Of a stretch of DNA of 64,000 bases, positions 28,910 to 43,053 are shown piece after piece. Every line of letters begins with the position of its first letter. The first letter of the stretch is position 1. The stretch lies in NCBI RefSeq assembly GCF_027920545.1, contig NZ_CP115859.1, forward strand, positions 2,536,001 to 2,600,000. Direction: 5' to 3'. A model generated the notes under the pieces. It was given only the letters and a program-made list of their open reading frames with translations, did no database searches and was not told the origin of the DNA. Made by a program: the position numbers and the translations under genes. Source of the DNA: Chryseobacterium camelliae (GTDB taxonomy: Bacteria > Bacteroidota > Bacteroidia > Flavobacteriales > Weeksellaceae).

Positions 28910-29994
28910 TGAATTCATTTTATAAACTTAAAACCGTGAAGGTTCAGAAAGATACTTCCGATGCGGTAAACGTAGCGGTAGAAATTCCTGAAGAACTGAA
29001 AGATAAATTCAGGTTCAAGCAGGGACAGTATCTTAATTTCCGAATGATGATCGACGGAAACGAAGAAAGACGTTCTTATTCGATCTGTAATGCTCCGAGT
29101 GAAAAGAGCAATACGTTGGAAGTATTGGTGAAATTATTGGAAAACGGAAAAGTTTCAGGTTATTTCAACGAGCATCTTCATATGGATGAAGTTCTTGAAG
29201 TAATGCCTCCAATGGGCGGTTTCAACACTTCTTATCACCCGACCAACGTGAAAACTTATATTGGTCTGGCTGCAGGAAGCGGAATTTCTCCGGTGTTGTC
29301 AAACATTAAAGAAAGTCTTTACCAGGAACCTAATTCTAATGCCTATTTATTCTACAGCAACAGAAGCATGAATCATGTGATGAAAAAGGCTGAGATCGAT
29401 AAATTGGTAGAGCAGTTCAACGGAAGACTGAAAGTTGTTTATTTAGTAAGCCGTGAGCAGCATGAAGACCCGATTTTTGAAGGAAGAATTTCTCCTGAAA
29501 AATTAGATCAGCTGTTTGAAAGATATGCAGATATCGATGTGAAAGAATCTACATTCTTTATTTGCGGACCTTCAGAAATGATCAAAGGAATCGCAGATTA
29601 TTTAAAGAAAGATAAAAAAGTACCTGCAATTCAGGTTTTATTTGAATATTTCACTGCTCCTGACGAAGAAAATACGGAGGAAATGAGTGATGAGTTCAAA
29701 GCCATTGCCAATATTGAAAGTATGGTAACGGTAATTATCGATGATGATGAATATTCGTTCCACCTGAATTCAAAAAAAGAAAGTATCTTAGATAAAGCAT
29801 TGAAAGACAATCTTCCTGTACCCTTTGCATGTAAAGGAGGAGTTTGTTGTACGTGTAAAGCGGAGGTTTTGGAAGGAGAAGTTTTCATGGAGAAAAACTA
29901 TGCGCTTACCGAAGAAGAAGTAGCCAGAGGTTATGTTCTTACCTGCCAATGTCACCCGACAACGAATGTGGTGATGCTTAATTATGACGTATAA
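28909..29994 (+). CDS. paaE: Phenylacetyl-CoA epoxidase reductase subunit PaaE
   Basis: A 361-residue reductase. It has an FAD/NAD ferredoxin-reductase module (RRSYSICNAP for FAD, GLAAGSGISPVLSNI for NAD(P)H, FFICGP) followed by a C-terminal plant-type 2Fe-2S domain (CKGGVCCTCKAEV, later Cys in LTCQCHP). It passes electrons from NADPH to the PaaAC di-iron oxygenase. Here paaE precedes paaABC, whereas in E. coli it follows them. Confidence 0.95.
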   Translation: MNSFYKLKTVKVQKDTSDAVNVAVEIPEELKDKFRFKQGQYLNFRMMIDGNEERRSYSICNAPSEKSNTLEVLVKLLENGKVSGYFNEHLHMDEVLEVMPPMGGFNTSYHPTNVKTYIGLAAGSGISPVLSNIKESLYQEPNSNAYLFYSNRSMNHVMKKAEIDKLVEQFNGRLKVVYLVSREQHEDPIFEGRISPEKLDQLFERYADIDVKESTFFICGPSEMIKGIADYLKKDKKVPAIQVLFEYFTAPDEENTEEMSDEFKAIANIESMVTVIIDDDEYSFHLNSKKESILDKALKDNLPVPFACKGGVCCTCKAEVLEGEVFMEKNYALTEEEVARGYVLTCQCHPTTNVVMLNYDV

Positions 29995-29999
29995 TTAAT

Positions 30000-30067
30000 G
30001 TAACAATTTACCGGTTTGCCGATGTAACAATCATTGGTACATTGCTAGACTGATACATTGCTAAATT
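30000..30067. repeat. 4x8 inverted-repeat element, copy 1 (paaE-paaA)
   Basis: Left arm 30000-30031 is four 8-mers: GTAACAAT, TTACCGGT, TTGCCGAT, GTAACAAT. Right arm 30033-30067 is ATTGGTAC, ATTGCTAG, ACTGATAC, ATTGCTAA plus ATT. The arms are separated by one base and fill the spacer from 5 bases after the paaE stop to 9 before the paaA start. Confidence 0.85.
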
Positions 30068-30075
30068 GAAAAATT

Positions 30076-31014
30076 ATGGATTTAGAAAAATTTGTACAAT
30101 ACGTACACGAAGAAAATAAAGTAGAACCAAAAGATGTAATGCCGGATGATTACAGAAAATTATTGGTTCGTCAGATTTCACAGCATGCACATTCTGAAAT
30201 TGTTGGAATGTTGCCGGAAGCCAACTGGATTTCAAGAGCACCTTCATTGAGAAGAAAAATGGCTCTTTTGGCTAAAGTTCAGGATGAAGCAGGTCATGGT
30301 TTATATCTTTATTCTGCAACGGAAACTTTAGGAGACGGAAGTATCAGAGCTGACAGAGATGCTACTTACGACGATATGTTGGAAGGAAAAGCAAAATATT
30401 CAAGTATTTTCAACTATCCGACATTAAGCTGGGCAGATATCGGTGCGATCGGCTGGTTGGTTGATGGTGCTGCGATTATGAACCAGGTAATGTTGATGGG
30501 AAATTCTTATGGTCCGTATTCAAGAGCGATGGTGAAAATCTGTAAAGAGGAATCTTTCCACCAAAGACAAGGATACGAGATTTTGATGGCGCTTTGCCGT
30601 GGTACAAAACAGCAGAAAGAAATGGCCCAGGCTTCGTTAAACCGTTTTTGGTGGCCGGCTTTAATGATGTTTGGTCCGAATGACGACAGCTCGCCAAACT
30701 CTAAAATCTCTATGAATTACAGAGTAAAAAGAGAAAGTAACGACAGTCTTCGTCAGAGATTTATTGATGTTACCGTTTCTCAAGCTGAATTCTTAGGATT
30801 AACGATTCCGGATAAAGATCTTAAATGGAATGAAGAAAGACAGCATTATGATTTCGGAGAGCTCCCTTGGGATGAATTCATGGAAATCCTGAAAGGAAAC
30901 GGACCTGCCAACAAAAAGCGTATCGAAACCAAGAGAAAAGCTCAAAGAGAAAATTCTTGGGTAAAAGAAGCAGCGGCGGCATTTGCAGAAAAACAACAAA
31001 AAGAAGTAATATAA
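30076..31014 (+). CDS. paaA: Phenylacetyl-CoA epoxidase catalytic subunit PaaA
   Basis: A 312-residue ferritin-like protein of normal length. Di-iron ligand motifs are [11 protein letters not shown] (ExxH) and [12 protein letters not shown] (ExxH). With PaaC it forms the catalytic core that inserts one oxygen atom to make ring-1,2-epoxyphenylacetyl-CoA. A short Lys/Arg/Glu-rich tail ends the protein. It is bracketed by two copies of the 4x8 inverted repeat. Confidence 0.96.
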
Positions 31015-31018
31015 TAAT

Positions 31019-31117
31019 GTAACAATATACCAATGTAAAAATGTAACAATCAATTGTTATTCTGAGCAAAGTGAAGAATCTCATTGGTAAATCGGTACAT
31101 TGATACATTGTTAAATT
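31019..31117. repeat. 4x8 inverted-repeat element, copy 2 (paaA-paaB), with nested repeat
   Basis: Left arm 31019-31050: GTAACAAT, ATACCAAT, GTAAAAAT, GTAACAAT. Right arm 31083-31117: ATTGGTAA, ATCGGTAC, ATTGATAC, ATTGTTAA plus ATT. Between them lies a 32-base insert containing ATTCTGAGCAAAGTGAAG then AATCTC, nearly the same insert as in copy 8. Confidence 0.85.
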
Positions 31118-31126
31118 AATTTGACT

Positions 31127-31408
31127 ATGGCAAATTTAGATATGTGGGAAGTGTTTATTCAGACTAAACCGGGATTATCTCACAAACACGTTGGAATTGT
31201 ACAGGCACCAACAGCAGAAATGGCTTTGCAAAATGCAAGAGACGTTTATACAAGAAGAAAAGAAGGAACTTCAGTTTGGGTAGTTCCGAGTAAATATATT
31301 GTGACCTCGGAAGGGGTGGACAAAGAAGCGTTCTTCGATCCTGCTGATGACAAATTATACCGTCACCCTACTTTCTACGAGATTCCAAACGATGTAAAAA
31401 ATATGTAA
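31127..31408 (+). CDS. paaB: Phenylacetyl-CoA epoxidase subunit PaaB
   Basis: A 93-residue protein of normal PaaB length. It opens MANLDMWEVFIQTKPGLSH and contains NARDVYTRRKEGTSVWVVPS. PaaB bridges PaaAC subunits in the epoxidase complex. I start at the ATG at 31127; a TTG two codons earlier is less likely. Confidence 0.95.
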   Translation: MANLDMWEVFIQTKPGLSHKHVGIVQAPTAEMALQNARDVYTRRKEGTSVWVVPSKYIVTSEGVDKEAFFDPADDKLYRHPTFYEIPNDVKNM

Positions 31409-31477
31409 AACAGCGATTGGCTGTTAGCTGCTTGCAATTTGCCAAAAGCTATACGCCAAAAACCAAAAGCTAAAATA
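31409..31477. repeat. Spacer with degenerate Ala-Lys-like repeat words
   Basis: The paaB-paaC gap lacks the 4x8 element. It holds another repetitive segment (GATTGGCTGTTAGCTG, then GCCAAAAGCTATACGCC, CCAAAAGCTAAA) in which the words TTAGCT and AGCTAAA are partly complementary, probably an intergenic repeat remnant. Confidence 0.35.
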
Positions 31478-32227
31478 ATGAACCCATTATATAATTATTT
31501 ATTAAAACTAGCAGACGACAGTTTCATTATGGGACAGCGTTTGTCTGCATGGTGCGGTGAAGGTCCTTATTTGGAGGAAGATATTGCATTAACGAATATT
31601 GCGTTGGATGAGCTAGGCCAGGCGAATAACTTTTACGTTTATGCTTCAAGAGTGATCGATAACGGAAAAAGTGAAGATGATTTGGCATTTTTAAGATACG
31701 AGCACGAATACTTAAATGCGCACTGGACAGAGCTTCCGAACGAAGATTATGCTCAGACGATTCTAAAAGTGTATGTTTTTGCAACGTATCAGAAATTGAT
31801 GTACGAAGCATTATCAAACTCTGCGAATGAAGAACTTTCTGCGATTGCTCAAAAATCTTTGAAAGAAGTAAGGTATCATTATACTCACGCTGCTTCCTGG
31901 ATGAAAATTTTCGCGCAGGGAACAAAAGAAAGTAAGGCTCGTTTGGTAAAAGCGATTGAAAATATCTGGGAATATACAAAAGGTTTATTTGCAAAAACAG
32001 AAGGAGAAGATGATTTGGTCGCTTTAAATATTGCTCCGAATACAGATGCTCTTTACGAAGAATTCCTTGCTATTACACAGAAAGATTTTGCTGATTTCAA
32101 ATTAGAATATCCGACAAATTCTTTCATGCAGCCAAAATCAAGAACGGGTTATCACACTGAGTATTTTGGATATATTCTTTGTGAGTTACAGTATATGCAG
32201 AGAGCATATCCTGGTTGTACTTGGTAA
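31478..32227 (+). CDS. paaC: Phenylacetyl-CoA epoxidase structural subunit PaaC
   Basis: A 249-residue ferritin-like protein, the partner of PaaA. Motifs are GQRLSAWCGEGPYLEEDIAL and LDELGQANNFY near the start and EVRYHYTHAASWM in the middle. The start is the ATG at 31478 (MNPLYNYLLKLADD); a TTG-initiated extension from 31439 would encode repeat DNA. Confidence 0.95.
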   Translation: MNPLYNYLLKLADDSFIMGQRLSAWCGEGPYLEEDIALTNIALDELGQANNFYVYASRVIDNGKSEDDLAFLRYEHEYLNAHWTELPNEDYAQTILKVYVFATYQKLMYEALSNSANEELSAIAQKSLKEVRYHYTHAASWMKIFAQGTKESKARLVKAIENIWEYTKGLFAKTEGEDDLVALNIAPNTDALYEEFLAITQKDFADFKLEYPTNSFMQPKSRTGYHTEYFGYILCELQYMQRAYPGCTW

Positions 32228-32237
32228 ATTTTTAAAT

Positions 32238-32269
32238 GTAACAATGTAGCAGTTTATCAATGTAACAAT
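32238..32269 (+). repeat. 4x8 element, copy 3: solitary left arm after paaC
   Basis: GTAACAAT, GTAGCAGT, TTATCAAT, GTAACAAT, eleven bases after the paaC stop. No matching right arm is present before or after the next small gene. The following spacer (32280-32380) holds other repeat-like words (CTTTGTGAACTTAAAAG, CTTTGCGTTTAAA). Confidence 0.75.
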
Positions 32270-32387
32270 TTTGAACTGTTATTAAGTTGTACTATTTGTT
32301 GACTTTGTTAAGTGAAACGCCTTTGTGAACTTAAAAGCAGTTAACGGCCAAAAAACATAGTGCACTTTGCGTTTAAAATTTTTAAGT

Positions 32388-32633
32388 ATGAAAAGGAGTT
32401 ACTTTAAAATCTTGATTACTGTTTTGCTGATTTTAATTCCGGTGTTTTATTTTGGAATTTTTAATTCAAAAGTCAGCTTAACATATGAAACAAATAATCC
32501 TGGAGATTGTATTTCATTAATAACAGGAAGAAATTTATGTCAGGACATAGAACAAATGAAAATATTAATTGCTGTTGATATTATTATAATTGTTCTTTTG
32601 ATGTTGTTTAGGAAAAAAATAATAAGAGATTGA
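32388..32633 (+). CDS. Small membrane protein inside the paa locus, unknown
   Basis: An 81-residue protein with two hydrophobic segments (ILITVLLILIPVFYFGIF and ILIAVDIIIIVLLMLF) and two Cys in the loop between. I do not recognise it. It separates paaC from paaD, follows an unpaired left arm of the 4x8 repeat, and its TGA stop overlaps the paaD TTG start (TTGA). It is not a known Paa component and may be cargo inserted into the operon. Confidence 0.6.
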   Translation: MKRSYFKILITVLLILIPVFYFGIFNSKVSLTYETNNPGDCISLITGRNLCQDIEQMKILIAVDIIIIVLLMLFRKKIIRD

Positions 32634-33094
32634 AAAATCCTTTAGAAATATTAGAATTAGTTCCCGATCCGGAAATTCCGGTAATCAATATCGTGGAATT
32701 AGGCATTGTAAGAGAAGCGAAAGTTACAAGCGAGAATTCTTGTGAAGTAACCATTACGCCGACTTATTCTGCCTGTCCTGCTATGTTTACCATTGAGGAA
32801 GACATTATAAAGATTATGAAAGAAAACGGTTGGGAAGCGAAAGTAGTCACCAAAATGTTTCCGATTTGGACAACAGACTGGCTGACGGATGAAGCGAGAG
32901 AAAAACTTCGTGCTTACGGAATCACTCCTCCGGAAAAAGGAGCAGATGAACATCATATCGGGAAACCGAAAAAATGCCCTCGGTGTGGTTCTGAGCATAC
33001 CAAACAGATCAGTAGATTTGGATCCACGCTGTGTAAGGCATCCTATCAATGTTTAGATTGTTTAGAGCCTTTTGACTATTTTAAATGTCATTAA
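32630..33094 (+). CDS. paaD: Phenylacetate pathway maturation protein PaaD
   Basis: A 154-residue protein. The N-terminal MIP18/DUF59 domain has LVPDPEIPVINIVELGIV and TYSACPA; the C-terminal zinc-ribbon-like tail has KCPRCGS and QCLDCLEPF. PaaD probably supports Fe-S or di-iron assembly of the epoxidase. No ATG precedes the conserved start; TTG at 32630 gives the expected length and overlaps the upstream stop (TTGA), indicating translational coupling. Confidence 0.9.
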   Translation: MKNPLEILELVPDPEIPVINIVELGIVREAKVTSENSCEVTITPTYSACPAMFTIEEDIIKIMKENGWEAKVVTKMFPIWTTDWLTDEAREKLRAYGITPPEKGADEHHIGKPKKCPRCGSEHTKQISRFGSTLCKASYQCLDCLEPFDYFKCH

Positions 33095-33153
33095 AAATGA
33101 TTAACTTTATAAAACAATCATTTTAATATTAACCTATTAATAACCAGTATAAT

Positions 33154-33954
33154 ATGTATACACAAATTGACATTGAAACGCATTTTGACGGAAAACTTAA
33201 AATTGCTTATCTCAATCAGCCGGAAACAATGAACGCGCTTACAAAACCTTCTTTATCGGATCTTAAAGATTTTATTAAAGATTGTAGCGAAGACGAAACG
33301 GTAAGATGTGTGGCGATTTCAGGAAGAGGAAGAGCTTTCTGTTCCGGTCAGAATTTGGATGATGCTTTTGTACAAGGGAATGAACATCATGATAATGACA
33401 TTATCAGAAAAATTGTAACAGATTATTACAACCCTCTGGTTAAGGAAATTACACGCTGTAAAAAACCTGTAGTTGCATTGGTAAACGGACCTGCTGTAGG
33501 AGCCGGAGCAATGTTGGCATTAATTTCAGACTTCGTTTTAGCAGTTGATAAATCATATTTTGCTCAGGCATTTTCAAATATCGGTTTAATTCCTGATACG
33601 GGAGGAACCTATTTCTTACCAAAACTATTGGGAAGACAATTGGCAAATTATTTAGCATTTACAGGTAAAAAACTGTCTGCTGAAGAAGCTAAATCTCACG
33701 GCTTGGTTGCGGAAGTTTTCAACGAAGAAGAATTCTCGCCAAAATCAATGGAAATCCTTGAGAAAATGTCAAATATGCCGACTGCAGCTATTAAATTAAC
33801 CAAAAAAGCTTTCGCCGCATCTTACAATAATACATTGAAAGATCAATTGGAGCTGGAAGGAGATTTACAGCAGGAAGCTGCAGAAACAGAAGACTTTATC
33901 GAAGGTGTAAATGCCTTTTTACAAAAAAGAAAACCTAATTATAAAGGAAGATAA
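33154..33954 (+). CDS. paaG: Ring-1,2-epoxyphenylacetyl-CoA isomerase PaaG
   Basis: A 266-residue crotonase-fold protein. Oxyanion-hole segments are SGRGRAFCSGQNL and GPAVGAGAMLAL. The segment IGLIPDTGGTYFLPKLLG is typical of PaaG. PaaG converts the epoxide to oxepin-CoA and later shifts a double bond. Context between paaD and paaH supports PaaG over a generic hydratase. Confidence 0.9.
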   Translation: MYTQIDIETHFDGKLKIAYLNQPETMNALTKPSLSDLKDFIKDCSEDETVRCVAISGRGRAFCSGQNLDDAFVQGNEHHDNDIIRKIVTDYYNPLVKEITRCKKPVVALVNGPAVGAGAMLALISDFVLAVDKSYFAQAFSNIGLIPDTGGTYFLPKLLGRQLANYLAFTGKKLSAEEAKSHGLVAEVFNEEEFSPKSMEILEKMSNMPTAAIKLTKKAFAASYNNTLKDQLELEGDLQQEAAETEDFIEGVNAFLQKRKPNYKGR

Positions 33955-33962
33955 GAATTAAT

Positions 33963-34054
33963 ATAACAATGTACCAATGTAACAGTTTACCAATTATGGA
34001 ATTATTGGAATTCAATTAAATTGTTACATTGTTACATTGATACACTGTTACATT
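33963..34054. repeat. 4x8 inverted-repeat element, copy 4 (paaG-paaH)
   Basis: Left arm 33963-33994: ATAACAAT, GTACCAAT, GTAACAGT, TTACCAAT. Right arm 34020-34054: ATTGTTAC twice, ATTGATAC, ACTGTTAC plus ATT, ending directly at the paaH ATG. The middle is 25 AT-rich bases. Confidence 0.85.
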
Positions 34055-35188
34055 ATGACGAATGTAGGAATTATCGGTGCCGGAACAATGGGAATCGGCA
34101 TTGCACAAGTAGCCGCAACGAACGGATGCAAAGTTTGGGTCTATGATGCCAACGCAAAACAAGTAGAAACGGCAACCGTAGGTTTGGAAAAAACATTGAC
34201 CAAATTGGTTGATAAACAAAAAATTTCAGCAGAGAAAATGACTGAAATTTTAGCTAACATTTCTATTGCTACAGAATTAAAAGACTTCAAAGATTGCGAA
34301 CTGATTATTGAAGCAATCATTGAAAACAAAGAAATTAAAACCAAAGTTTTCACAGAATTAGAACAGCATGTTTCTGAAAGTTGTGTGATTGGTTCCAATA
34401 CATCCTCTATTTCCATCACCTCTCTGGGTGCGGAATTACAAAAACCGGAGCGTTTCATTGGAATTCACTTTTTCAATCCGGCTCCATTGATGCCTTTAGT
34501 TGAGGTTATTCCATCTTTATTAACAGAAAAAACTTTAGCGCAAAAAATTTATAATCTGATGAAAGATTGGGGGAAAACTCCAGTGATTGCTAAAGATATT
34601 CCAGGATTTATCGTAAACAGAATTGCTCGTCCTTACTATGGTGAAGGATTGAGAATTGTTGAAGAAAACATGGCAACGGTAGAACAGGTAGATGAAGCCA
34701 TGAAAATATTAGGGAACTTTAAAATGGGACCTTTTGAATTGATGGATTTAATTGGAGTTGATGTGAATTTTTCCGTAACAAAAACGGTTTACAACGAATA
34801 TTTCTACGATCCGAAATACAAGCCGTCTCTTCTTCAGCAAAGAATGTCGGAAGCCAAACTTCACGGCAGAAAAACAGGAAAAGGTTTCTACGATTATTCT
34901 GAAGGAGCGGAAAAACCTGTTGCGGAAAAAAACGATGCTCTTTATCAGTATATATTCTTGAGAATTATCTCTATGTTGATTAATGAAGCGGTTGAAGCAA
35001 AAAGACTAGGCGTTGCGAATGATGAAGATTTGGAATTGGCAATGCAGAAAGGCGTGAATTATCCAAAAGGATTATTAGCTTGGGGAAAAGAAATAGGATA
35101 CGCAAAAATCTCCGAAACCCTGCAAAATCTTTACGAGGAATATCAGGAAGAGAGATACAGACAAAGCCCGTTACTACGTAAATTATAA
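34055..35188 (+). CDS. paaH: 3-hydroxyadipyl-CoA dehydrogenase PaaH
   Basis: A 377-residue 3-hydroxyacyl-CoA dehydrogenase. The NAD motif is GIIGAGTMGIGIAQ at the N-terminus; the catalytic region has SNTSSISITSL and IGIHFFNPAPLMPLVEVI, followed by KDIPGFIVNRIARPY. The start is the ATG at 34055, immediately after the repeat; the earlier start at 34037 lies in repeat DNA. It oxidises 3-hydroxyadipyl-CoA to 3-oxoadipyl-CoA. Confidence 0.93.
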   Translation: MTNVGIIGAGTMGIGIAQVAATNGCKVWVYDANAKQVETATVGLEKTLTKLVDKQKISAEKMTEILANISIATELKDFKDCELIIEAIIENKEIKTKVFTELEQHVSESCVIGSNTSSISITSLGAELQKPERFIGIHFFNPAPLMPLVEVIPSLLTEKTLAQKIYNLMKDWGKTPVIAKDIPGFIVNRIARPYYGEGLRIVEENMATVEQVDEAMKILGNFKMGPFELMDLIGVDVNFSVTKTVYNEYFYDPKYKPSLLQQRMSEAKLHGRKTGKGFYDYSEGAEKPVAEKNDALYQYIFLRIISMLINEAVEAKRLGVANDEDLELAMQKGVNYPKGLLAWGKEIGYAKISETLQNLYEEYQEERYRQSPLLRKL

Positions 35189-35191
35189 AAT

Positions 35192-35268
35192 GTATCAATG
35201 TATCAGTTTACCAATATAACAATATATACAACCATTGGTAAATTGCTAGATTGTTAAATTGTTACATT
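35192..35268. repeat. 4x8 inverted-repeat element, copy 5 (after paaH)
   Basis: Left arm 35192-35223: GTATCAAT, GTATCAGT, TTACCAAT, ATAACAAT. Right arm 35234-35268: ATTGGTAA, ATTGCTAG, ATTGTTAA, ATTGTTAC plus ATT. The loop is 10 bases. Confidence 0.85.
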
Positions 35269-35274
35269 AGAATT

Positions 35275-35586
35275 ATGGATATAGAAGGGTTTAGAGCCGA
35301 ATTGGAAACAAGGCTTATCATTGAAAAAGACTACATCATTCAGGAGCTTTCTTCGATACATAATGATCGGGAAAAGTTGGAATTACTGGGAAAATTCAAT
35401 GAAAAATACAAAGAGCTGATTAAAAGAATGGCGAATGAAGAAGGTATCGATTTAAATGAGCTCTATCAAACCGAAGTCTCATCAAATTCAGAAAATCTTT
35501 CATATGAACAGATAATTCTTGGTAAAACCATGAATATTTATGACAAATTGGTTGATGAATTATATGAAGAAATAACACAAATCTGA
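35275..35586 (+). CDS. Small helical protein inside the paa locus, unknown
   Basis: A 103-residue acidic protein, probably all-helical (MDIEGFRAELETRLIIEKDYIIQELSSI at its start, written here as MDIEGFRAELETRL then IIEKDYIIQEL). It has no signal peptide or membrane segment. I do not recognise it. It follows repeat copy 5 and precedes a small membrane protein gene; like its neighbour it is not a known Paa component. Confidence 0.6.
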   Translation: MDIEGFRAELETRLIIEKDYIIQELSSIHNDREKLELLGKFNEKYKELIKRMANEEGIDLNELYQTEVSSNSENLSYEQIILGKTMNIYDKLVDELYEEITQI

Positions 35587-35633
35587 AGGCTGCCATTATA
35601 TTAGAGTCGGTTGTTAAATAAAGTATTAAAATT

Positions 35634-35882
35634 ATGCTTAAAAGAATTTTTACAAAGAAAAACTTTCTGAGATCTCTCGTAAGCGCAATCATTTTTAGTA
35701 TTGCTTTTTTTCTGATTAAACTTCTATTTTATTATTTTGAATGGGATGATGAAAAAAGCATAAATATATATGGTCTTGTATTTTATTTCATCTTTATGTT
35801 TTTAGCTTTCTTCATTTTAGACGGCAGAGATTACACTTGGAAAGATGTTATAAAATTAAAAAATTTAAATAAAAATAAATGA
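35634..35882 (+). CDS. Small two-TM membrane protein, unknown
   Basis: An 82-residue protein with a basic N-terminus (MLKRIFTKKNFLRS) and two hydrophobic segments, about residues 13-33 and 46-64. It resembles generic small DUF membrane proteins but no specific family is recognised. Its TGA overlaps the paaI ATG by 4 bases (ATGA), so it is coupled to the pathway gene. Confidence 0.6.
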   Translation: MLKRIFTKKNFLRSLVSAIIFSIAFFLIKLLFYYFEWDDEKSINIYGLVFYFIFMFLAFFILDGRDYTWKDVIKLKNLNKNK

Positions 35883-36292
35883 ACCCGAGACAGGTTGCAG
35901 AATATATGTTCGATCAGGATTATTTTTCCCAATGGATGAATATCAAACTAATCGAAGTAAAAGAAAATTATTGCTTAATAGAAATGCCCATTAAAAAAGA
36001 AATGATTAACGGGCTAAAAACGGTTCACGGAGGAGTTACATTTGCTTTTGCAGATTCTGCATTGGCATTTTCGTCTAACAATTCCGGAGATGCTGCCGTT
36101 GCACTGAATTGCATCATCAATTTTACCAAAGCTGGAAAAGAAGGAGATACCTTCAGAGCAGAAAGCACTTTGGTAAACGAGACCAGAAAAACAGCAGTTT
36201 ACGATATTAAAATTACCAATCAAAACGAAGAGTTAATTGCAAAATTTGTCGGAACGGTTTATAAAATCGGAAAAAAAGTAACTGAACTTTAA
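35879..36292 (+). CDS. paaI: Hydroxyphenylacetyl-CoA thioesterase PaaI
   Basis: A 137-residue hotdog-fold thioesterase. The signature INGLKTVHGGVTFAFADSA contains the HGG turn and the catalytic Asp of PaaI. It releases CoA from dead-end acyl-CoAs to protect the CoA pool. The start overlaps the upstream stop. Confidence 0.92.
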   Translation: MNPRQVAEYMFDQDYFSQWMNIKLIEVKENYCLIEMPIKKEMINGLKTVHGGVTFAFADSALAFSSNNSGDAAVALNCIINFTKAGKEGDTFRAESTLVNETRKTAVYDIKITNQNEELIAKFVGTVYKIGKKVTEL

Positions 36293-36299
36293 GCTTAAT

Positions 36300-36739
36300 G
36301 TAACAATGTAATAATTTACCAATCTAACAATTTTTAAATGATGATAAATTTTGAAAATAATCCATTAATTGAGAAGACGGTTCAATTTTCATTAGATATT
36401 ATTGAATTTTGTGAGTTGTTAGAGGAAAAAAGAAAATTTGTTATTGCAAAACAATTATTACGTTCCGGAACAAGCATTGGAGCAAATGCATTTGAAGCTC
36501 AAAACCCACACAGCAAGAATGATTTTGTAAATAAAATTAAAATTGCTGCTAAAGAATTAGAAGAAACAAAATATTGGCTCTATCTCTGTAAACATTCTAA
36601 AAACTATCCTTTCAATGAAAAATTAGAACTTCAAATTACCGAGATTGGAAAAATTATATATAAAATACTAAGTACAAGTCTAAATAAAAACCAATCAATA
36701 TAGCATTGGTAAACTGTTACATTGCTATATTTTTACATT
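36300..36739. repeat. 4x8 inverted-repeat element, copy 6, with a gene between its arms
   Basis: Left arm 36300-36331: GTAACAAT, GTAATAAT, TTACCAAT, CTAACAAT. Right arm 36705-36739: ATTGGTAA, ACTGTTAC, ATTGCTAT, ATTTTTAC plus ATT. A 366-base gene for an S23-family four-helix protein occupies the interval, beginning 6 bases after the left arm and ending one base before the right arm. Confidence 0.8.
36338..36703 (+). CDS. Four-helix bundle protein (S23 / 23S rRNA intervening-sequence family)
   Basis: A 121-residue all-helical protein with the family pattern: ENNPLIEKTVQFSLDIIEF, a KQLLRSGTSIGANAFEAQ motif, KNDFVNKIKIAAKELEET and YWLYLCKHSK. S23 proteins were first found in intervening sequences of 23S rRNA genes and related folds occur as bAvd in diversity-generating retroelements. 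Their own function is not settled. Here it sits exactly between the arms of repeat copy 6 in the paaI-paaJ spacer, so it looks like a passenger, not a pathway gene. Confidence 0.88.
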   Translation: MMINFENNPLIEKTVQFSLDIIEFCELLEEKRKFVIAKQLLRSGTSIGANAFEAQNPHSKNDFVNKIKIAAKELEETKYWLYLCKHSKNYPFNEKLELQITEIGKIIYKILSTSLNKNQSI

Positions 36740-36747
36740 AAAATATT

Positions 36748-37953
36748 ATGAACAACGTATACATCATAGATTATGTTAGAACTCCCATTTCAAAATTACA
36801 GGGAGGTTTATCAGAAGTGCGTGCCGATGATTTAGCGGCAGTTGTCCTTAAAGAAATAGTTGCAAGAAATCCTGAAGTTCCTGTTGAGGAAATTGAGGAT
36901 GTTATTTTCGGATGTGCCAATCAGGCTGGTGAAGATAACAGAAACGTAGCAAGAATGGGACTTTTATTGGCTGGGCTTCCTTACAAAATAGGAGGGGAAA
37001 CCGTAAACAGGTTGTGTGCTTCGGGAATGTCGGCGGTGGCTAATGCTTTCCGTTCGATTGCTGCAGGAGAAGGTGAAATTTATATTGCGGGTGGAGTGGA
37101 GCACATGACGCGTTCGCCTTATGTAATGTCAAAACCAAGTGCTGCTTTCGGTAGAGATAGTCAGATGTTTGATACGACTTTCGGATGGAGATTTATCAAT
37201 CCGAAAATGAAAGAATTATATGGTGTTGACGGAATGGGAGAAACTGCGGAAAACTTGGCAGACATCCACAATATCAGTCGTGAAGATCAGGATAAATTTG
37301 CCCTTTGGTCTCAGCAAAAGGCGACTAAAGCTCAGCAAAGCGGAAGATTAGCGGAAGAAATCGTAAAAGTGGAAATTCCGCAGAGAAAAGGTGAACCGAA
37401 AATCTTCGATACGGATGAATTCATCAAGCCTACTTCTTCAATGGAAGGATTAGGAAAACTTCGACCTGCTTTCAGAAAAGAAGGAACCGTAACGGCTGGA
37501 AATGCTTCAGGAATGAATGACGGAGCTGCGGTTTTAATTTTAGCAAGTGAAGAAGCTGTAAAAAAATATGGTTTGAAGCCGAAAGCTAAGATTTTAGGAT
37601 CATCTGTTGCCGGTGTTGAGCCGAGAATTATGGGAATCGGACCTGTTGAAGCGACTCAGAAGCTTTTAAAAAGACTGAACCTTTCATTAGATGATATGGA
37701 CATCATCGAATTGAACGAAGCTTTTGCAGCTCAGGCTTTAGCGGTAACAAGAACATTAGGATTAAAAGATGACGATTCAAGAATCAATCCAAACGGAGGT
37801 GCCATTGCAATTGGTCACCCACTGGGAGTTTCCGGAGCAAGAATTGTTGGCTCTGCGGCTATGGAACTTCAGAAACAGGATAAAAAATATGCATTGTGTA
37901 CCCTTTGTATCGGTGTCGGACAAGGTTATGCAATGATTATTGAAAAAGTATAA
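36748..37953 (+). CDS. paaJ: 3-oxoadipyl-CoA thiolase
   Basis: A 401-residue thiolase. The nucleophile Cys lies in VNRLCASGMSAV, the His in NPNGGAIAIGHPLGVSG and the second Cys in TLCIGVGQG. It cleaves 3-oxoadipyl-CoA to succinyl-CoA and acetyl-CoA, and also acts on the 3-oxo-5,6-dehydrosuberyl-CoA intermediate. The sequence is of PaaJ/PcaF type. Confidence 0.94.
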   Translation: MNNVYIIDYVRTPISKLQGGLSEVRADDLAAVVLKEIVARNPEVPVEEIEDVIFGCANQAGEDNRNVARMGLLLAGLPYKIGGETVNRLCASGMSAVANAFRSIAAGEGEIYIAGGVEHMTRSPYVMSKPSAAFGRDSQMFDTTFGWRFINPKMKELYGVDGMGETAENLADIHNISREDQDKFALWSQQKATKAQQSGRLAEEIVKVEIPQRKGEPKIFDTDEFIKPTSSMEGLGKLRPAFRKEGTVTAGNASGMNDGAAVLILASEEAVKKYGLKPKAKILGSSVAGVEPRIMGIGPVEATQKLLKRLNLSLDDMDIIELNEAFAAQALAVTRTLGLKDDDSRINPNGGAIAIGHPLGVSGARIVGSAAMELQKQDKKYALCTLCIGVGQGYAMIIEKV

Positions 37954-37966
37954 CATTTTCAATAAT

Positions 37967-38033
37967 ATAACAGTGTAACAGTTTACCAATGTACTAATAT
38001 TGTTAGACTGTTACATTGTTAAATTGGTACATT
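37967..38033. repeat. 4x8 inverted-repeat element, copy 7 (paaJ-paaY)
   Basis: Left arm 37967-37998: ATAACAGT, GTAACAGT, TTACCAAT, GTACTAAT. Right arm 37999-38033: ATTGTTAG, ACTGTTAC, ATTGTTAA, ATTGGTAC plus ATT. The arms abut with no spacer, the most compact copy. Confidence 0.85.
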
Positions 38034-38046
38034 AAATTAAAATTTT

Positions 38047-38640
38047 ATGAATATTTACTCATATCACGGAATTCGTCCCATCATTAAACCATCTGCATAC
38101 ATTCATCCGCAAGCGGTGATTATCGGAAATGTTGAAATCGGCGAAGAAGTTTATATCGGTCCGAATGCGGTAATCCGTGGCGACTGGGGTAAAATTATCA
38201 TCAAAGACGGTGCAAATGTTCAGGAAAACTGTACCCTTCATGTTTTTCCCGGGATTGAAACCATTCTGGAAGAATCTGCACACATTGGTCATGGAGCAAT
38301 TATTCATTCCGGGCACATCGGTAGAAACTGTTTGGTTGGAATGAATGCAGTGGTGATGGATAAAGCAGTTATTGGCGATGAATGTATTATCGGAGCATTA
38401 GCTTTTGTTCCTGCTAATTTTAAATGTGAGCCAAGAAAATTGATTGTTGGAAGTCCTGCAAAAATCATCCGTGATGTTTCTGATGAAATGATCAAATGGA
38501 AAACAGAAGGAACAAAATTATATCAGGAACTGGCAAGAGAAGGTAAAGACGCCATTTTGCCTTGTGAGCCTTTTACGGAATATGTTCAGCAGATTCCAAC
38601 CAAAATTGTAGATTACAGCATTTGGGATGATGTAAAATGA
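38047..38640 (+). CDS. paaY: Gamma-carbonic-anhydrase-like thioesterase PaaY
   Basis: A 197-residue left-handed beta-helix protein of the gamma carbonic anhydrase family. Hexapeptide repeats are clear (VIIGNVEIGEEVYIGPNAVI), and metal His residues lie in HVFPG, HIGHGAI and HSGHIG. In paa operons PaaY hydrolyses stalled acyl-CoAs alongside PaaI. It is the last paa gene before a transposase and esterase interrupt the order. Confidence 0.92.
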   Translation: MNIYSYHGIRPIIKPSAYIHPQAVIIGNVEIGEEVYIGPNAVIRGDWGKIIIKDGANVQENCTLHVFPGIETILEESAHIGHGAIIHSGHIGRNCLVGMNAVVMDKAVIGDECIIGALAFVPANFKCEPRKLIVGSPAKIIRDVSDEMIKWKTEGTKLYQELAREGKDAILPCEPFTEYVQQIPTKIVDYSIWDDVK

Positions 38641-38650
38641 TTTTTCTTAC

Positions 38651-38685
38651 TAAACCTCATAGGTTTTTAAAACCTATGAGGTTTA
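38651..38685. repeat. REP palindrome, left flank of RAYT gene
   Basis: AAACCTCATAGGTTTT and its exact complement with a single central T, 35 bases in all. It is nearly identical to the palindrome at 39314-39349. Confidence 0.85.
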
Positions 38686-38720
38686 ATTAAATATTAAAAC
38701 ACACAAATGAAGAAAAAGAA

Positions 38721-39299
38721 ATGTCAAATACAGAAAATTTTGAATGTGGTTATGTATACCATATTTACACTCATGCAAATGGAAAAGATTTAATTTTTAG
38801 GGAAGAAGAAAATTATAAATATTTTTTAGATAAGCTTGTAAAATATATTATTCCGATAGCTGAAATATATGCGTATTGTTTAATGTCTAATCATTTTCAT
38901 TTTTTAATAAGGTTTAAAAATTTAGACCAAATATCCAATGAGGGTGAGCATAAATATTTAATGAGACAGTTTAGTAACTTACTAAATGGCTATGCAAAAG
39001 CATATAATAAGAAATACAATAGAAAAGGTGCTCTTTTTCTTGATTTTTTAAAACGTAAGAGAGTGAATGATGAAAAGTATTTGATTAAATTATTTCATTA
39101 TATCCACAATAATCCTGTCAATCATGGATTTGTTGAAGATATTAATGATTGGAAATATTCATCTTATCATTCTTATATTAATTTGGCTAAAGAAAGTAAA
39201 ATTGAAAGAAAAGAAATGATGCAATATTTTGAAACAATAAAAGATTTTGTAGAATATCATAAATCAAACGTTGAATATGATTTTCTAACAATCGAATAA
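38721..39299 (+). CDS. REP-associated tyrosine transposase (RAYT, Y1/IS200-like)
   Basis: A 192-residue Y1_Tnp-fold protein. The HUH motif is SNHFHFLI (His58, His60) and the likely catalytic Tyr is in YAKAYNKKYNRKG (about residue 95); IHNNPVNHGFV is typical of the RAYT C-terminal part. Such single-copy transposases act on REP palindromes next to their own gene, and two matching palindromes flank this one. It lies in the paa operon orientation between paaY and the esterase gene. Confidence 0.9.
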   Translation: MSNTENFECGYVYHIYTHANGKDLIFREEENYKYFLDKLVKYIIPIAEIYAYCLMSNHFHFLIRFKNLDQISNEGEHKYLMRQFSNLLNGYAKAYNKKYNRKGALFLDFLKRKRVNDEKYLIKLFHYIHNNPVNHGFVEDINDWKYSSYHSYINLAKESKIERKEMMQYFETIKDFVEYHKSNVEYDFLTIE

Positions 39300-39313
39300 A
39301 ATAGAGTTTAACT

Positions 39314-39349
39314 CAAACCTCATAGGTTTCTAAAACCTATGAGGTTTTG
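39314..39349. repeat. REP palindrome, right flank of RAYT gene
   Basis: AAACCTCATAGGTTT and its complement with a 3-base centre, differing from the left copy by one or two bases. Together the pair brackets the transposase gene. Confidence 0.85.
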
Positions 39350-39386
39350 AATAAGGTTCGAAAAGACGATTAATAGTGAAAAAAGT

Positions 39387-40214
39387 ATGATCAAAAAACT
39401 TCTTATTTTCTGTAGTATTCTGTTTACATTTCAATTCATGGTTTTTGCCCAGAGTTCCAATGTAAAACCGTTAACTATTGGAGAAATAAGAACGATAAAG
39501 TCTAAGATTTTAAATGAAGAAAGAACTTTAAATATCTATCTTCCGCAAAATTTTGATAAAACAAAATCTTACCCGATCATTTATCTTCTGGATGGGAGCT
39601 TGAATGAAGATTTTATTCACGTTACAGGATTGATTCAATTCTTTAATCAAATGTATTCCATGCCGGAAACCATTGTGGTGGGAATTGCCAATATTGACAG
39701 GAAAAAAGATTTTACATTTCATACAGATTTAAAAGACTTACAGAAAGATTATCCTACAACGGGACACTCAGATCAATTCATCAGCTTTCTTGAAAAAGAA
39801 TTAAAACCTTACATCCGAAGTCAGTTTAAAACAACCGATAACTATTTATTCGGACAATCATTAGGCGGACTCTTAGCAACAGAAATTTTGTTGAAAAAAC
39901 CTGAAATGTTTACTAATTATTTTATCATCAGTCCAAGTTTGTGGTGGGATGATGAAAGTCTTTTAAAACAAGCCAATCAGTTACTCAGTAAAATTCCGGA
40001 TACCAAGAAATTTATTTATTTTTCTGTGGGAAAAGGAGAACATCCGGTGATGGTAAAAGATACGGAAGATTTATATGATGTTCTGAAAAAATCGGGTAAG
40101 AAAAACTGGATGGTAGAATATAAAATGATGGAAACAGACAACCACGCAACGATTCTTCACAGAAGTTTGTACGAAGGTTTGGTGAAATTGTTTCCTTATC
40201 AAGAACCGAAATAA
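39387..40214 (+). CDS. Exported alpha/beta hydrolase, esterase (Fes/IroE-like, esterase D family)
   Basis: A 275-residue protein with a signal peptide (MIKKLLIFCSILFTFQFMVFAQ). It is an alpha/beta hydrolase of the putative esterase family: YPIIYLLDGS, nucleophile Ser in FGQSLGGLLATE, SPSLWWDDE, and the catalytic His in ETDNHATILHRS near the end. Relatives hydrolyse ferric-siderophore esters or feruloyl esters. It is not a known phenylacetate enzyme; its position may be accidental. Confidence 0.85.
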   Translation: MIKKLLIFCSILFTFQFMVFAQSSNVKPLTIGEIRTIKSKILNEERTLNIYLPQNFDKTKSYPIIYLLDGSLNEDFIHVTGLIQFFNQMYSMPETIVVGIANIDRKKDFTFHTDLKDLQKDYPTTGHSDQFISFLEKELKPYIRSQFKTTDNYLFGQSLGGLLATEILLKKPEMFTNYFIISPSLWWDDESLLKQANQLLSKIPDTKKFIYFSVGKGEHPVMVKDTEDLYDVLKKSGKKNWMVEYKMMETDNHATILHRSLYEGLVKLFPYQEPK

Positions 40215-40224
40215 AATAAAAAAT

Positions 40225-40326
40225 ATAACAGTCTAAAAATGTATCATTATAACAATTTTTTACAACTTGTCATTCTGAACGAAGTGAAGAATCTCATTGG
40301 TAACTGTTAAATTGATACATTATTAA
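40225..40326. repeat. 4x8 inverted-repeat element, copy 8 (before paaZ), with nested repeat
   Basis: Left arm 40225-40256: ATAACAGT, CTAAAAAT, GTATCATT, ATAACAAT. Right arm 40296-40326: ATTGGTAA, CTGTTAA (one base short), ATTGATAC, ATTATTAA. The 39-base insert contains CATTCTGAACGAAGTGAAG then AATCTC, matching copy 2. Confidence 0.8.
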
Positions 40327-40338
40327 AGTAAAAACTAT

Positions 40339-42834
40339 ATGGAAAAATTAAAAAACTATATCTACGGTGAATGGGTAGAAGGAAGCGGAAATGGAATTCC
40401 TTTGTACAATGCCGTAAACGGAGAGCAGGTTGCCATTTCCGATACGGAAGGTCTGAATTTTGAGCAGGCACTTGACTACGGAAGAACAATAGGGTACAAA
40501 AACCTTTCATCCATGACATTCTATGATCGTGGAGAAATGTTGAAAAAAGTAGCTCTTTATTTATTAGAAAGAAAGAAAAAATATTACGAATTATCTTATA
40601 AAACAGGAGCAACTCATGTTGATTCTTGGGTAGATATCGAAGGAGGTTTCGGTACGTTCTTTACCTATTCAGGATTGGCAAAAAGGATGCTTCCGAATAC
40701 TCCGTTTTGGGTAGATGGAGAAACTCAGAAGATTTCTGCTAACGGAACTTTCCTGGGAACTCATATCCTGACTCCGAGTGAAGGAGTTTCAGTACAGATT
40801 AATGCTTACAACTTTCCGGTTTGGGGAATGTTGGAAAAATTATCGACCTCTTTATTGGCAGGTGTTCCTTCAATTGTAAAACCATCTCCATTTGGATCTT
40901 ATTTAACCAACGCAGTTTTCCAGGATATGATTGAAAGCGGAATTCTTCCTGAAGGAGCTGTTCAATTAGTTTGTGGCGAACCGGGAAATATTCTGGATTA
41001 TGTTCAGGATGGAGATTCTGTATTGTTCACAGGTTCTGCAACAACAGGTAGGAAATTGAAATCTTTACCGTCAGTTGCAGGAAATGCGGTTCGTTTCAAT
41101 ATGGAAGCAGATTCTTTGAACTGTTCAATTCTTGGATTGGATGCAAAACCGGGAACTCCTGAATTTGATCTATTCATTAAAGAGGTTCGTAACGAAATGA
41201 CGACGAAAGCCGGACAAAAATGTACGGCGATCAGAAGAATCATCGTTCCTGAAAACTTAATAGGAGATGTTCAGCATGCGTTGGCAAAAGCTTTAGACCA
41301 GACAAAAATAGGAAACCCGTTGAGCAGAGAAACGAGAATGGGTTCTTTGGTTGGAAAACAGCAGTATGATGAGGTATTGAGAAAAGTTAACTTGTTAAAA
41401 GCTGAAACGGAACTTGTTTATGACGGGAAACATGAATTGGTAGATGCCAACTACGAAAATGGAGCATTTATGAGTCCGAAATTGTTCTTAAACGATTCTC
41501 CATTTACAAAAAACATCTCTCATGATGTCGAAGCTTTCGGCCCGGTTTCTACGTTAATGCCTTACAAAGACGCAGAAGAAGCGGCAGCTTTGGCAAAAAG
41601 AGGAAAAGGAAGCTTGGTAGGATCTATCATTTCTCATGACGATCAGTTCGTAGCAGAGACTTCCTGGAAAATGGCTTCTCAGCACGGAAGAATTTTCGTG
41701 TTGAACAGAGATAATGCAAAAGAAAGTACAGGTCACGGTTCTCCGCTTCCTACTTTAATGCATGGCGGACCTGGTAGAGCAGGAGGTGGTGAGGAAATGG
41801 GTGGACTGAACGGTCTTCATTTCTTCCTTCAGAAAACAGCGATTCAGGGCTCTCCGGATACGTTGACCGCAATTACTAAAATTTATCAGCAGGGTGCTGA
41901 GAAAAAATATTCAGATAAGCATCCTTTCCAGAAATATTTCGAAGAAGTGGAAGTTGGAGATTCTCTGGAAACTGCTGGAAGAACGGTTACTGATGCAGAT
42001 ATCGTGAATTTCTCTAATGTTTCTTGGGATCATTTCTACGCGCATACAGATGCTACAAGCTTAACGGGGACTATCTTTGATAAAACAGTTGCTCACGGAT
42101 ATTTCATCCTTTCTGCAGCAGCGGGATTATTCGTTTCAGGTAAAAAAGGACCGGTTATTGCGAACTACGGATTAGAAAACTGCTCATTCTTCAAGCCTGT
42201 TTATGCAGGAGATACCATTACGGTGTATTTAACAGCAAAAGAAAAAATCAACAGAGGAGTAAAAGGAAGAAATATTCCTTCAGGTGTGGTAAAATGGTTG
42301 GTTGAAGTGGTGAATCAAAGAGATGAGGTAGTTTGTGTGGCGACAATTTTAACGTTGGTAGCGAAACAATCTCCTTTCATCGATCTTAACTTAAAGAGTA
42401 TTCAAAAAGCTTTAAATGGCTTAACTGAATCTACTCAGCCAAATTGGGGTAAAATGTCTCCTCAGCAGATGATTGAACATTTAGAGCACGGCGTTTTGGT
42501 AAGTTTGGGTGAACCGGAAGCAGACAAATGCTTTACTCCTGAAGAACAGCTGGATAAATGGCAGGATTCTTTGTACAATCACAGAAAAATGCCGAAAGAT
42601 TTCCCTGCACCATTCTTATCAGAAGATGAAAAGCTGTTGGAATTAAGACACAAAAACCTTGAAGCTGCAAAAATTTCTTTCATGGATAATCTGAAAAGAT
42701 TCTCTATCTACTACAAAGAAAATCCACAGGCAGAACATATGAATTTTGTGTTCGGAAAGCTAAATAAAGAAATGTGGGAGTTAATGCACAAGAAACATTT
42801 TACGCATCATTTTGAACAGTTTGGATTGATTTAA
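40339..42834 (+). CDS. paaZ: PaaZ oxepin-CoA hydrolase/semialdehyde dehydrogenase with C-terminal DUF1569 domain
   Basis: An 831-residue protein, about 150 longer than E. coli PaaZ. Residues 1 to about 510 form the aldehyde dehydrogenase (FTGSATTG for NAD, catalytic Cys295 in AGQKCTAIRR). About 530-675 is the MaoC-like hydratase (WDHFYAHTDAT, VAHGYFI). From about 685 to the end is a DinB-superfamily/DUF1569-like helical domain (MSPQQMIEHLEHGV and HKKHFTHHFEQFG with metal-type His). PaaZ opens oxepin-CoA and oxidises the resulting aldehyde. The role of the fused domain is unknown; the fusion may be common in flavobacteria. Confidence 0.92.
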   Translation: MEKLKNYIYGEWVEGSGNGIPLYNAVNGEQVAISDTEGLNFEQALDYGRTIGYKNLSSMTFYDRGEMLKKVALYLLERKKKYYELSYKTGATHVDSWVDIEGGFGTFFTYSGLAKRMLPNTPFWVDGETQKISANGTFLGTHILTPSEGVSVQINAYNFPVWGMLEKLSTSLLAGVPSIVKPSPFGSYLTNAVFQDMIESGILPEGAVQLVCGEPGNILDYVQDGDSVLFTGSATTGRKLKSLPSVAGNAVRFNMEADSLNCSILGLDAKPGTPEFDLFIKEVRNEMTTKAGQKCTAIRRIIVPENLIGDVQHALAKALDQTKIGNPLSRETRMGSLVGKQQYDEVLRKVNLLKAETELVYDGKHELVDANYENGAFMSPKLFLNDSPFTKNISHDVEAFGPVSTLMPYKDAEEAAALAKRGKGSLVGSIISHDDQFVAETSWKMASQHGRIFVLNRDNAKESTGHGSPLPTLMHGGPGRAGGGEEMGGLNGLHFFLQKTAIQGSPDTLTAITKIYQQGAEKKYSDKHPFQKYFEEVEVGDSLETAGRTVTDADIVNFSNVSWDHFYAHTDATSLTGTIFDKTVAHGYFILSAAAGLFVSGKKGPVIANYGLENCSFFKPVYAGDTITVYLTAKEKINRGVKGRNIPSGVVKWLVEVVNQRDEVVCVATILTLVAKQSPFIDLNLKSIQKALNGLTESTQPNWGKMSPQQMIEHLEHGVLVSLGEPEADKCFTPEEQLDKWQDSLYNHRKMPKDFPAPFLSEDEKLLELRHKNLEAAKISFMDNLKRFSIYYKENPQAEHMNFVFGKLNKEMWELMHKKHFTHHFEQFGLI

Positions 42835-42846
42835 TTCAAAGTATAT

Positions 42847-42884
42847 AAATCCCTTTTAAACTAATTTTAAAAGGGATTTCTTAT
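42847..42884 (+). terminator. Terminator of the paa operon
   Basis: AAATCCCTTTTAAA pairs perfectly over 14 bases with its complement around a 5-base loop, followed by a T-rich tail. The rest of the 219-base gap to 43054 is AT-rich with nothing recognised. Confidence 0.85.
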
Positions 42885-43053
42885 TTAAAAGATTCATCTT
42901 TAGTGATATGAACTTTTATAAAACATGTACAAAATGATTTTTAAACAAAAAGCTTTATTAGGAAAATATAAACCTTTAGAATGTTAAAAAAATCAATTTT
43001 AATTCAAAATAAATATAGATATTTGATGAAGCTACTTTTAAAAAAAAAATACT

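Follow-up and report, generated by a model that had tools for sequence, protein, structure and literature searches.

Repetitive extragenic palindromic (REP) elements and REPINs are short palindromic spacer elements with REP-associated tyrosine transposases (RAYTs), and some copies carry a small protein gene. Here we describe a family of hairpins made of inverted tandem octamer arrays, found in eight spacers of the paa operon of Chryseobacterium camelliae within a 64,000-nucleotide stretch of contig NZ_CP115859.1 (positions 2,536,001 to 2,600,000; the window). These resemble REP/REPIN as short palindromic spacer elements, some copies of which have a small protein gene, but their arms are arrays of tandem units with no RAYT-type transposase between them. 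We propose, with a probability of about 0.7, that the octamer hairpins are members lacking an open reading frame (ORF) of a mobile, transcribed element whose complete form is an arm, an IVP/S23 gene and an inverted arm, and that this element is one of a large class with IVP genes flanked by inverted 7/8-mer arrays, the unit of which varies from lineage to lineage.

The octamer hairpins are best read as akin to the intervening sequences (IVSs) of 23S rRNA. PMC4990558 describes the Coxiella IVS as having a 28-bp terminal stem, with heptamers in tandem ahead of the S23 ORF, and as being excised by RNase III. An S23/IVP ORF within a terminal stem, short tandem units on the 5' side (heptamers in Coxiella) and a scattered distribution are points of likeness, and the IVS has been termed a selfish element. 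The octamer elements differ in sitting between protein genes rather than in 23S rRNA, in mostly having no ORF (copy 6 alone of the eight window copies has an S23/IVP ORF between terminal inverted repeats) and in using 8-mers. Among 187 IVP loci compared with five rRNA motifs there were only six matches, all to one 16-mer.

Three further systems share parts of this anatomy, as described in the available portions of their reports. The P6b stem-loop of the Nostoc trnL intron (PMC4476775) has a stem made from either of two 7-nt motifs that are unrelated, and is not distributed in strict accordance with phylogeny; it differs in lying inside a group I intron and having no IVP link, and at least five classes occur at one paa site here, so the likeness of an interchangeable short-tandem-motif stem is one of architecture only. 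The GGGAATC and GGGGA(T/C)T repeats of Xanthomonas and Nostoc (PMC4692102) are intergenic heptamer arrays that form close inverted pairs in two genomes of Xanthomonas (70 and 75 pairs), but are treated as quadruplex-forming and form few inverted pairs in Nostoc; neither 'S23' nor 'four helix bundle' occurs in that text. The TAACTGA repeats of Beggiatoaceae (PMC4679880) are likewise arrays of heptamers in spacers, and many of them stop immediately upstream of a start codon, but they comprise 169 direct sets and one inverted, with no IVP term. In these portions none of the four papers links S23 IVSs, the P6b stem and heptamer repeats together, and no description of the octamer family or of a general link between IVPs and 7/8-mer arms was recognised among titles and abstract openings of open-licence PMC text.

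Octamer arms in the paa operon and beyond

When four consecutive 8-mers were scored against the pattern [GAT]TANCA[AG]T, all matches of at least 27 of 32 points in the 64 kb fell within 29992-40334, compared with a maximum of 26 in five first-order Markov sequences of window length, scanned on one strand. The initial annotation, which had described left arms of four octamers in eight spacers and none elsewhere in the window, is borne out on both points, and its proviso that the periodicity might be no stronger than in shuffled sequence does not apply. As it also reported, seven copies have a right arm (copies 1, 2 and 4 to 8), and one unit of that in copy 8 lacks a base; in copy 3 no right arm can be recognised. 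Position 4 of the unit is free, as first noted, position 1 is largely free, and position 7 is A or G. Runs of three or more units occur on 380 strands of paa spacers no longer than 700 nt in 59 genomes; the maximum run is four units in 273 of these, three in 56, five in 43, six in 6 and seven in 2, and four units are the norm of the octamer family.

Using RNA folding, five of the seven copies other than copy 6 have z-scores of -2.6 to -5.7 relative to dinucleotide shuffles, and copies 3 (z -0.8) and 8 (z -1.7) are unremarkable against the shuffles. Across 137 distinct two-armed elements the arms pair at frequencies of 0.88-0.98 at unit positions 2, 3, 5, 6 and 8, where the motif is fixed.

The octamer arms are dispersed well beyond paa. 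A 38-column sequence model built from 32 arms of the C. camelliae genome (3.44 Mb) finds 45 arms there at E <= 0.011, with 150 of 1807 first-look candidates scored, and these make up, by our pairing, 19 two-armed and seven one-armed places (about 26 copies), eight of them in the paa operon. Because these copies are scattered over the genome the octamer hairpin is not a paa leader, and the possibility that the arms are part of an ancestral operon leader is likewise not upheld. The same profile finds arms in all 60 genus genomes sampled, C. camelliae included, at 4 to 74 each (E <= 1e-3), and, in the family, in 122 of 197 genomes, from 19 of 33 genera (E <= 1e-4). Matches occur in 43 of 246 genomes of the order, 34 of which are within the same family; each of the other nine gives one match or two (best E 1.2e-8). 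Since the order-sample matches lie mostly inside it, the octamer hairpins are for the most part limited to a single bacterial family. A detector that seeks hairpins first recovers five in the 11 kb of paa (of the eight copies) and none in the window's remaining 53 kb. In a 400-kb sample it finds six hairpins with a best lag of 7 or 8 at >= 0.45, two of which are known octamer copies, and none in the shuffle; five further hairpins have lag 9 or 12. A strict array detector finds one case in that sample.

The coordinates of all features are given in Table 1, with paa gene names that we take from the initial annotation and general knowledge, a few of the proteins having been tested. Terminal inverted repeats, a trait of miniature inverted-repeat transposable elements, are present and imperfect, with one side missing in copy 3. 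An intrinsic terminator was rejected, there being no G+C-rich stem followed by a T run, and A+T-rich arms inside an operon with no RAYT between them agree with the earlier view that this is neither a simple terminator nor a classical REP. Rfam gives nothing above gathering score in 29500-43000, the only match being mir-2804 (35.1 bits, E 5.3e-4, gathering score 86). The loops of octamer hairpins often contain a second repeat of type GTCATTCTGAACGAAGTGAAGAATCTC or GTCATGCTGAGCTTGTCGAAGCATCTC (window copies 2 and 8, and loci L004 and L020), and such repeats also occur in spacers of relatives (for example L124, L128, L146 and L151); a literature search for these strings gave no match. The paaB-paaC spacer folds unremarkably (z -0.97). 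A RAYT-like gene in the window is flanked by other palindromes and not by octamer arms, and REP/REPIN with a RAYT was rejected as an account of the hairpins. Within 38650-39345 this gene has a copy of a palindrome near AACCTCATAGGTTT..AAACCTATGAGGTT on either side, and gene and palindromes are a separate small mobile element.

Table 1. Positions of octamer copies and other features in the window
Feature	Position	Strand	Left arm	Right arm	Location and remarks
Copy 1	30000..30064	+	30000-30031	30033-30064	paaE-paaA spacer
Copy 2	31019..31114	+	31019-31050	31083-31114	paaA-paaB; second repeat in loop
Different repeat class	31409..31479	+			paaB-paaC spacer; GCCAAAA-like, ~7 nt by eye; site empty in five species
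Copy 3	32238..32269	+	32238-32269		after paaC; left arm alone
Copy 4	33963..34051	+	33963-33994	34020-34051	paaG-paaH
Copy 5	35192..35265	+	35192-35223	35234-35265	after paaH
Copy 6	36300..36736	+	36300-36331	36705-36736	paaI-thiolase; ORF-bearing form
IVP/S23 four-helix-bundle protein gene	36338..36703	+			inside copy 6; 121 aa; PF05635 E 4.6e-21; TIGR02436 E 2.8e-25
Copy 7	37967..38030	+	37967-37998	37999-38030	thiolase-paaY; loopless
RAYT-like gene	38721-39299				paaY-paaZ interval; NF047646 61.5 bits, below cut-off 80
Copy 8	40225..40326	+	40225-40256	~40296-40326	before paaZ; one unit a base short

IVP/S23 genes between inverted arrays

The initial annotation overlooked the IVP gene enclosed by copy 6, and the dispersed hairpin element has both an ORF-bearing and an ORF-less form. 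The copy-6 protein has a solved homologue with five chains (2RLD, E 3.5e-21) and a weak, below-cut-off match to the retroelement protein Avd; an S23 protein of Xanthomonas is a homopentameric toroid according to the part of PMC4990558 considered. IVPs at least 75% identical to that of copy 6 are found at 28 loci in 98 genus genomes, and every one of these loci has octamer arms to the left and right of the gene (30-32 of 32 points). Judged by flanking proteins or by coordinates, 17 are at the paaI-thiolase spacer and 11 (L375-L384 and L386) between carA and carB, which is a second site, unrelated to paa, with the same arms and a close IVP. The IVPs at paaG-paaH, 50-53% identical to copy 6, are in the different TTTGAAAA arm class, and a 58% identical IVP between sufB and sufC (L387) has no octamer arms. 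For the copy-6 IVP, pairs from paa have a median dN/dS of 0.05 (89 of 91 usable), pairs from carA-carB one of 0.07 (45 of 45) and pairs across the two sites one of 0.05 (75 of 140 usable, the rest saturated), and with values of 0.05-0.07 we conclude that the protein is kept by purifying selection. Genus genomes with this IVP have a median of 42 arms (n=20) compared with 20.5 in those without it (n=40; Mann-Whitney p 1.2e-5, kinship ignored).

The carA-carB spacer was compared in 30 genomes. Five have octamer arms with an IVP, six an IVP in CAGATATTAG-type arms, three an IVP in AAGAACC-type arms, and 16 other sequence, including one probable remnant (L424) and two cases of an arm-like carA tail with no IVP (L433 and L435). 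Upstream of the octamer element, carA reads into the left arm and its C-terminus is ..FKNVTV or ..FKNVPV in place of ..FKK (L409, L410, L414, L415 and L417). Separately, the arms in the paa spacers of L142 and L156 enclose only an apparent remnant of the IVP frame, and these look like decay intermediates.

The octamer family is also one of many 7/8-mer families sharing one architecture, which the initial annotation likewise missed. All ten IVP places in the C. camelliae genome look, by eye, flanked by inverted short-unit tandem arrays, the unit differing at each. The best autocorrelation lag at 67 IVP loci (nine from this genome, 28 from the family and 30 from the phylum; L037 and L196, with mis-set frames, counted as they stand) is 7 in 46, 8 in 12, 14 in 6, 12 in two and 9 in one. 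Relative to Markov shuffles, 60 reach p <= 0.05 and 50 reach p <= 0.01, compared with two of 49 control ORFs from IVP loci at p <= 0.01; in a rerun six of the 49 controls reached p <= 0.05 and 14 had a best lag of 7, 8 or 14. That lag is seen in 37 of forty further Bacteroidota loci (34 at p <= 0.05) and in 73 of 78 loci (69 at p <= 0.05) in named records of Cyanobacteria, Proteobacteria, Acidobacteria, Planctomycetes, Chloroflexi, Spirochaetes, Firmicutes and a metagenome-assembled genome of a Methanophagales archaeon, drawn from the best 80 of at least 588 relatives; omitting two with N-masked flanks gives 71 and 67 of 76. Pooled, 172 of 183 usable loci have a best lag of 7, 8 or 14 and 161 reach p <= 0.05, two further loci being too short to include. 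The left and right units of one locus match as inverted repeats with a mean of 0.752 (37 of 183 perfect), compared with 0.525 between loci (4 of 1830 perfect) and 0.488 as direct repeats. In a lenient count of 131 high-scoring loci, the most frequent arms are those of five or six units. At L191 the arms have period 9, so unit lengths are not limited to 7 and 8.

Arms and IVP are inherited together. Among 175 full IVPs including near relatives, 159 remained after removal of those over 88% identical; in these, pairs below 35% identity have the same period at a frequency of 0.63 and a unit identity of 0.57, compared with 1.00 and 0.83 at 75-88% identity. The IVP tree requires nine period changes, with at least 16 (mean 19.1) in 200 label shuffles. 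No flank homology was detected in 89 of the 144 pairs at 60% identity or more, and 83 of these 89 have the same period, with a mean unit identity of 0.71. This tracking of IVP relatedness by unit and period shows co-inheritance. The IVP is co-directional with its upstream neighbour in 139 of 160 cases and with its downstream neighbour in 123 of 143, an arrangement consistent with expression from the host transcript but frequent among neighbouring bacterial genes in any case.

Exchange of hairpin classes at orthologous spacers

The paaA gene is present in 59 of 60 genus genomes, and we compared spacers in 58 paa loci together with that of the window, three being cut short by a region or contig end. 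Octamer arms are present in 36 of 59 paaE-paaA spacers, 38 of 59 paaA-paaB spacers and no paaB-paaC spacer. Across species the paaG-paaH spacer has hairpins of five classes, under names coined in this analysis: octamer, TTTGAAAA (with or without an IVP), TTAGAAG, GTACAAT and ATGTATTA. Classes were assigned by hand-made patterns, rows classed as 'other' were dropped, and changes were counted on a tree from nucleotides of five paa genes with 30 label shuffles. There are 27 changes at paaG-paaH (shuffled mean 30.4), 23 at paaI-paaF (24.9) and 14 at paaE-paaA (13.7), and classes are exchanged at most spacers with little regard to phylogeny. Species with 94-95% identity in paa genes (L124 and L145; L133 and L137) have different classes at several spacers, and the closest pair (L138 and L164) has the same class at four of five. 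Interspecies recombination could add to the count of changes. The paaB-paaC spacer is empty (2-4 nt) in five genomes and filled (71-145 nt) in 54. Orthologous spacers thus differ in both presence and class over the 59 genomes, and these differences, the dispersed copies and the occurrence of arms with an IVP at two unrelated sites support the earlier suggestion of a mobile intercistronic element. The initial annotation had also suggested an RNA hairpin that may tune expression between operon genes; on this point, most of the folded copies are structured, but compensatory changes between their arms are absent.

Interpretation and alternatives

Several observations weigh against a mobile arm-IVP-arm element. 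Phylogenetic signal is present at paaH-paaI (8 changes, shuffled mean 11.7) and paaB-paaC (4 and 6.6, n=13), below every shuffle, and by eye there is no consistent target duplication between filled and empty paaB-paaC sites. The arms were not linked to any transposase or reverse transcriptase, though no systematic search for one was made. Seven of the eight window copies have no ORF, and arms without a copy-6-type IVP in 40 of 60 genus genomes mean that the IVP is not needed to keep them; the difference in arm number between genomes with and without it rests on statistics that ignore phylogeny. One of the ten IVP places in C. camelliae has octamer arms, the others having other 7/8-mer classes, and the IVP as general cargo of the octamer family was accordingly rejected. 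Nor is the link between arm class and IVP identity strict, because a decayed 58% identical IVP frame at paa (L388) lies in octamer arms. Most IVP loci are top-scoring matches, and the unselected set from C. camelliae has seven of nine at p <= 0.05. The proteins are only mildly basic (median isoelectric point 8.5; 89 of 177 above 8.5), and a unit and period that follow the descent of the IVP are evidence of joint travel but not of binding. For Coxiella, the authors of PMC4990558 consider that the S23 protein is probably not produced in vivo and that its ORF is decaying. Pairing at unit positions 1, 4 and 7 is 0.32, 0.37 and 0.75, compared with 0.39, 0.45 and 0.80 for shuffled arms, and because these lie below the shuffled values no compensatory covariation supports selection on the stem. 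Selection for mismatch is not claimed either: the deficit is an average, with position 1 of unit 3 pairing more, and the copies share descent and may lie in both orientations.

One alternative is that the host keeps the hairpins because a spacer needs some long and imperfectly paired hairpin, whether for segmenting or stabilising the mRNA or for insulating translation, with the 7/8-mer class neutral and any mobile origin secondary. Nearly every long paa spacer has some hairpin by eye despite the swaps of class, five of the seven folded copies reach z <= -2.6, and most IVP genes run in the same direction as their neighbours. We nevertheless think this unlikely, as there is no compensatory change between the arms, some spacers are empty or lack an arm, the hairpin density is special to paa, and the IVP is left unexplained.

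Much less probable is that tandem 7/8-mers arise in place by polymerase slippage on hairpins and that nothing moves. Slippage has been proposed for the heptamer repeats that are over-represented in bacteria (in the part of PMC4692102 considered), and unit number does vary somewhat; but one octamer consensus is found at some 26 places and across genera, four-unit arms dominate, and the arms travel with related IVPs, the same unit and IVP being seen at unrelated sites. We give hardly any credence to an arm as four DNA sites for a host DNA-binding protein, forming inverted arrays between genes: rigid spacing and a motif that is conserved within an arm while pairing of its variable bases is not are what such sites would show, but in the window the copies occupy stop-to-start intervals within a single operon, and species differ wholly in the consensus present at a given spacer.

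For the mobile element that we favour, a plausible pathway is insertion at junctions of stop and start codons within operons, followed by co-transcription with the operon and folding. It could be tolerated because the mRNA can be cut there or stay folded, much as RNase III acts on 23S rRNA IVSs. The IVP, a pentamer in the solved relative, might bind the repeat units, perhaps one per subunit, and so help the element to spread or persist, and copying may act in trans. A broader and distinctly tentative proposal is that IVP/S23 proteins are ring-shaped readers of 7/8-nt units, each lineage reading its own unit in the arms of the transcript that encodes it and spreading a hairpin to stop/start junctions with no transposase of its own, and that Nostoc P6b, the 23S IVSs and heptamer repeats are traces of one kind of mobile hairpin.

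The rule that IVP genes lie between inverted 7/8-mer arrays is a single, testable one, and it unites phenomena so far treated separately: the 23S rRNA IVSs, the S23/IVP proteins of unknown function, the over-representation of heptamer repeats and class-swapping stems. It supplies a candidate ligand for IVPs in each genome, and it depicts operon spacers as being refilled by interchangeable hairpins between close species.

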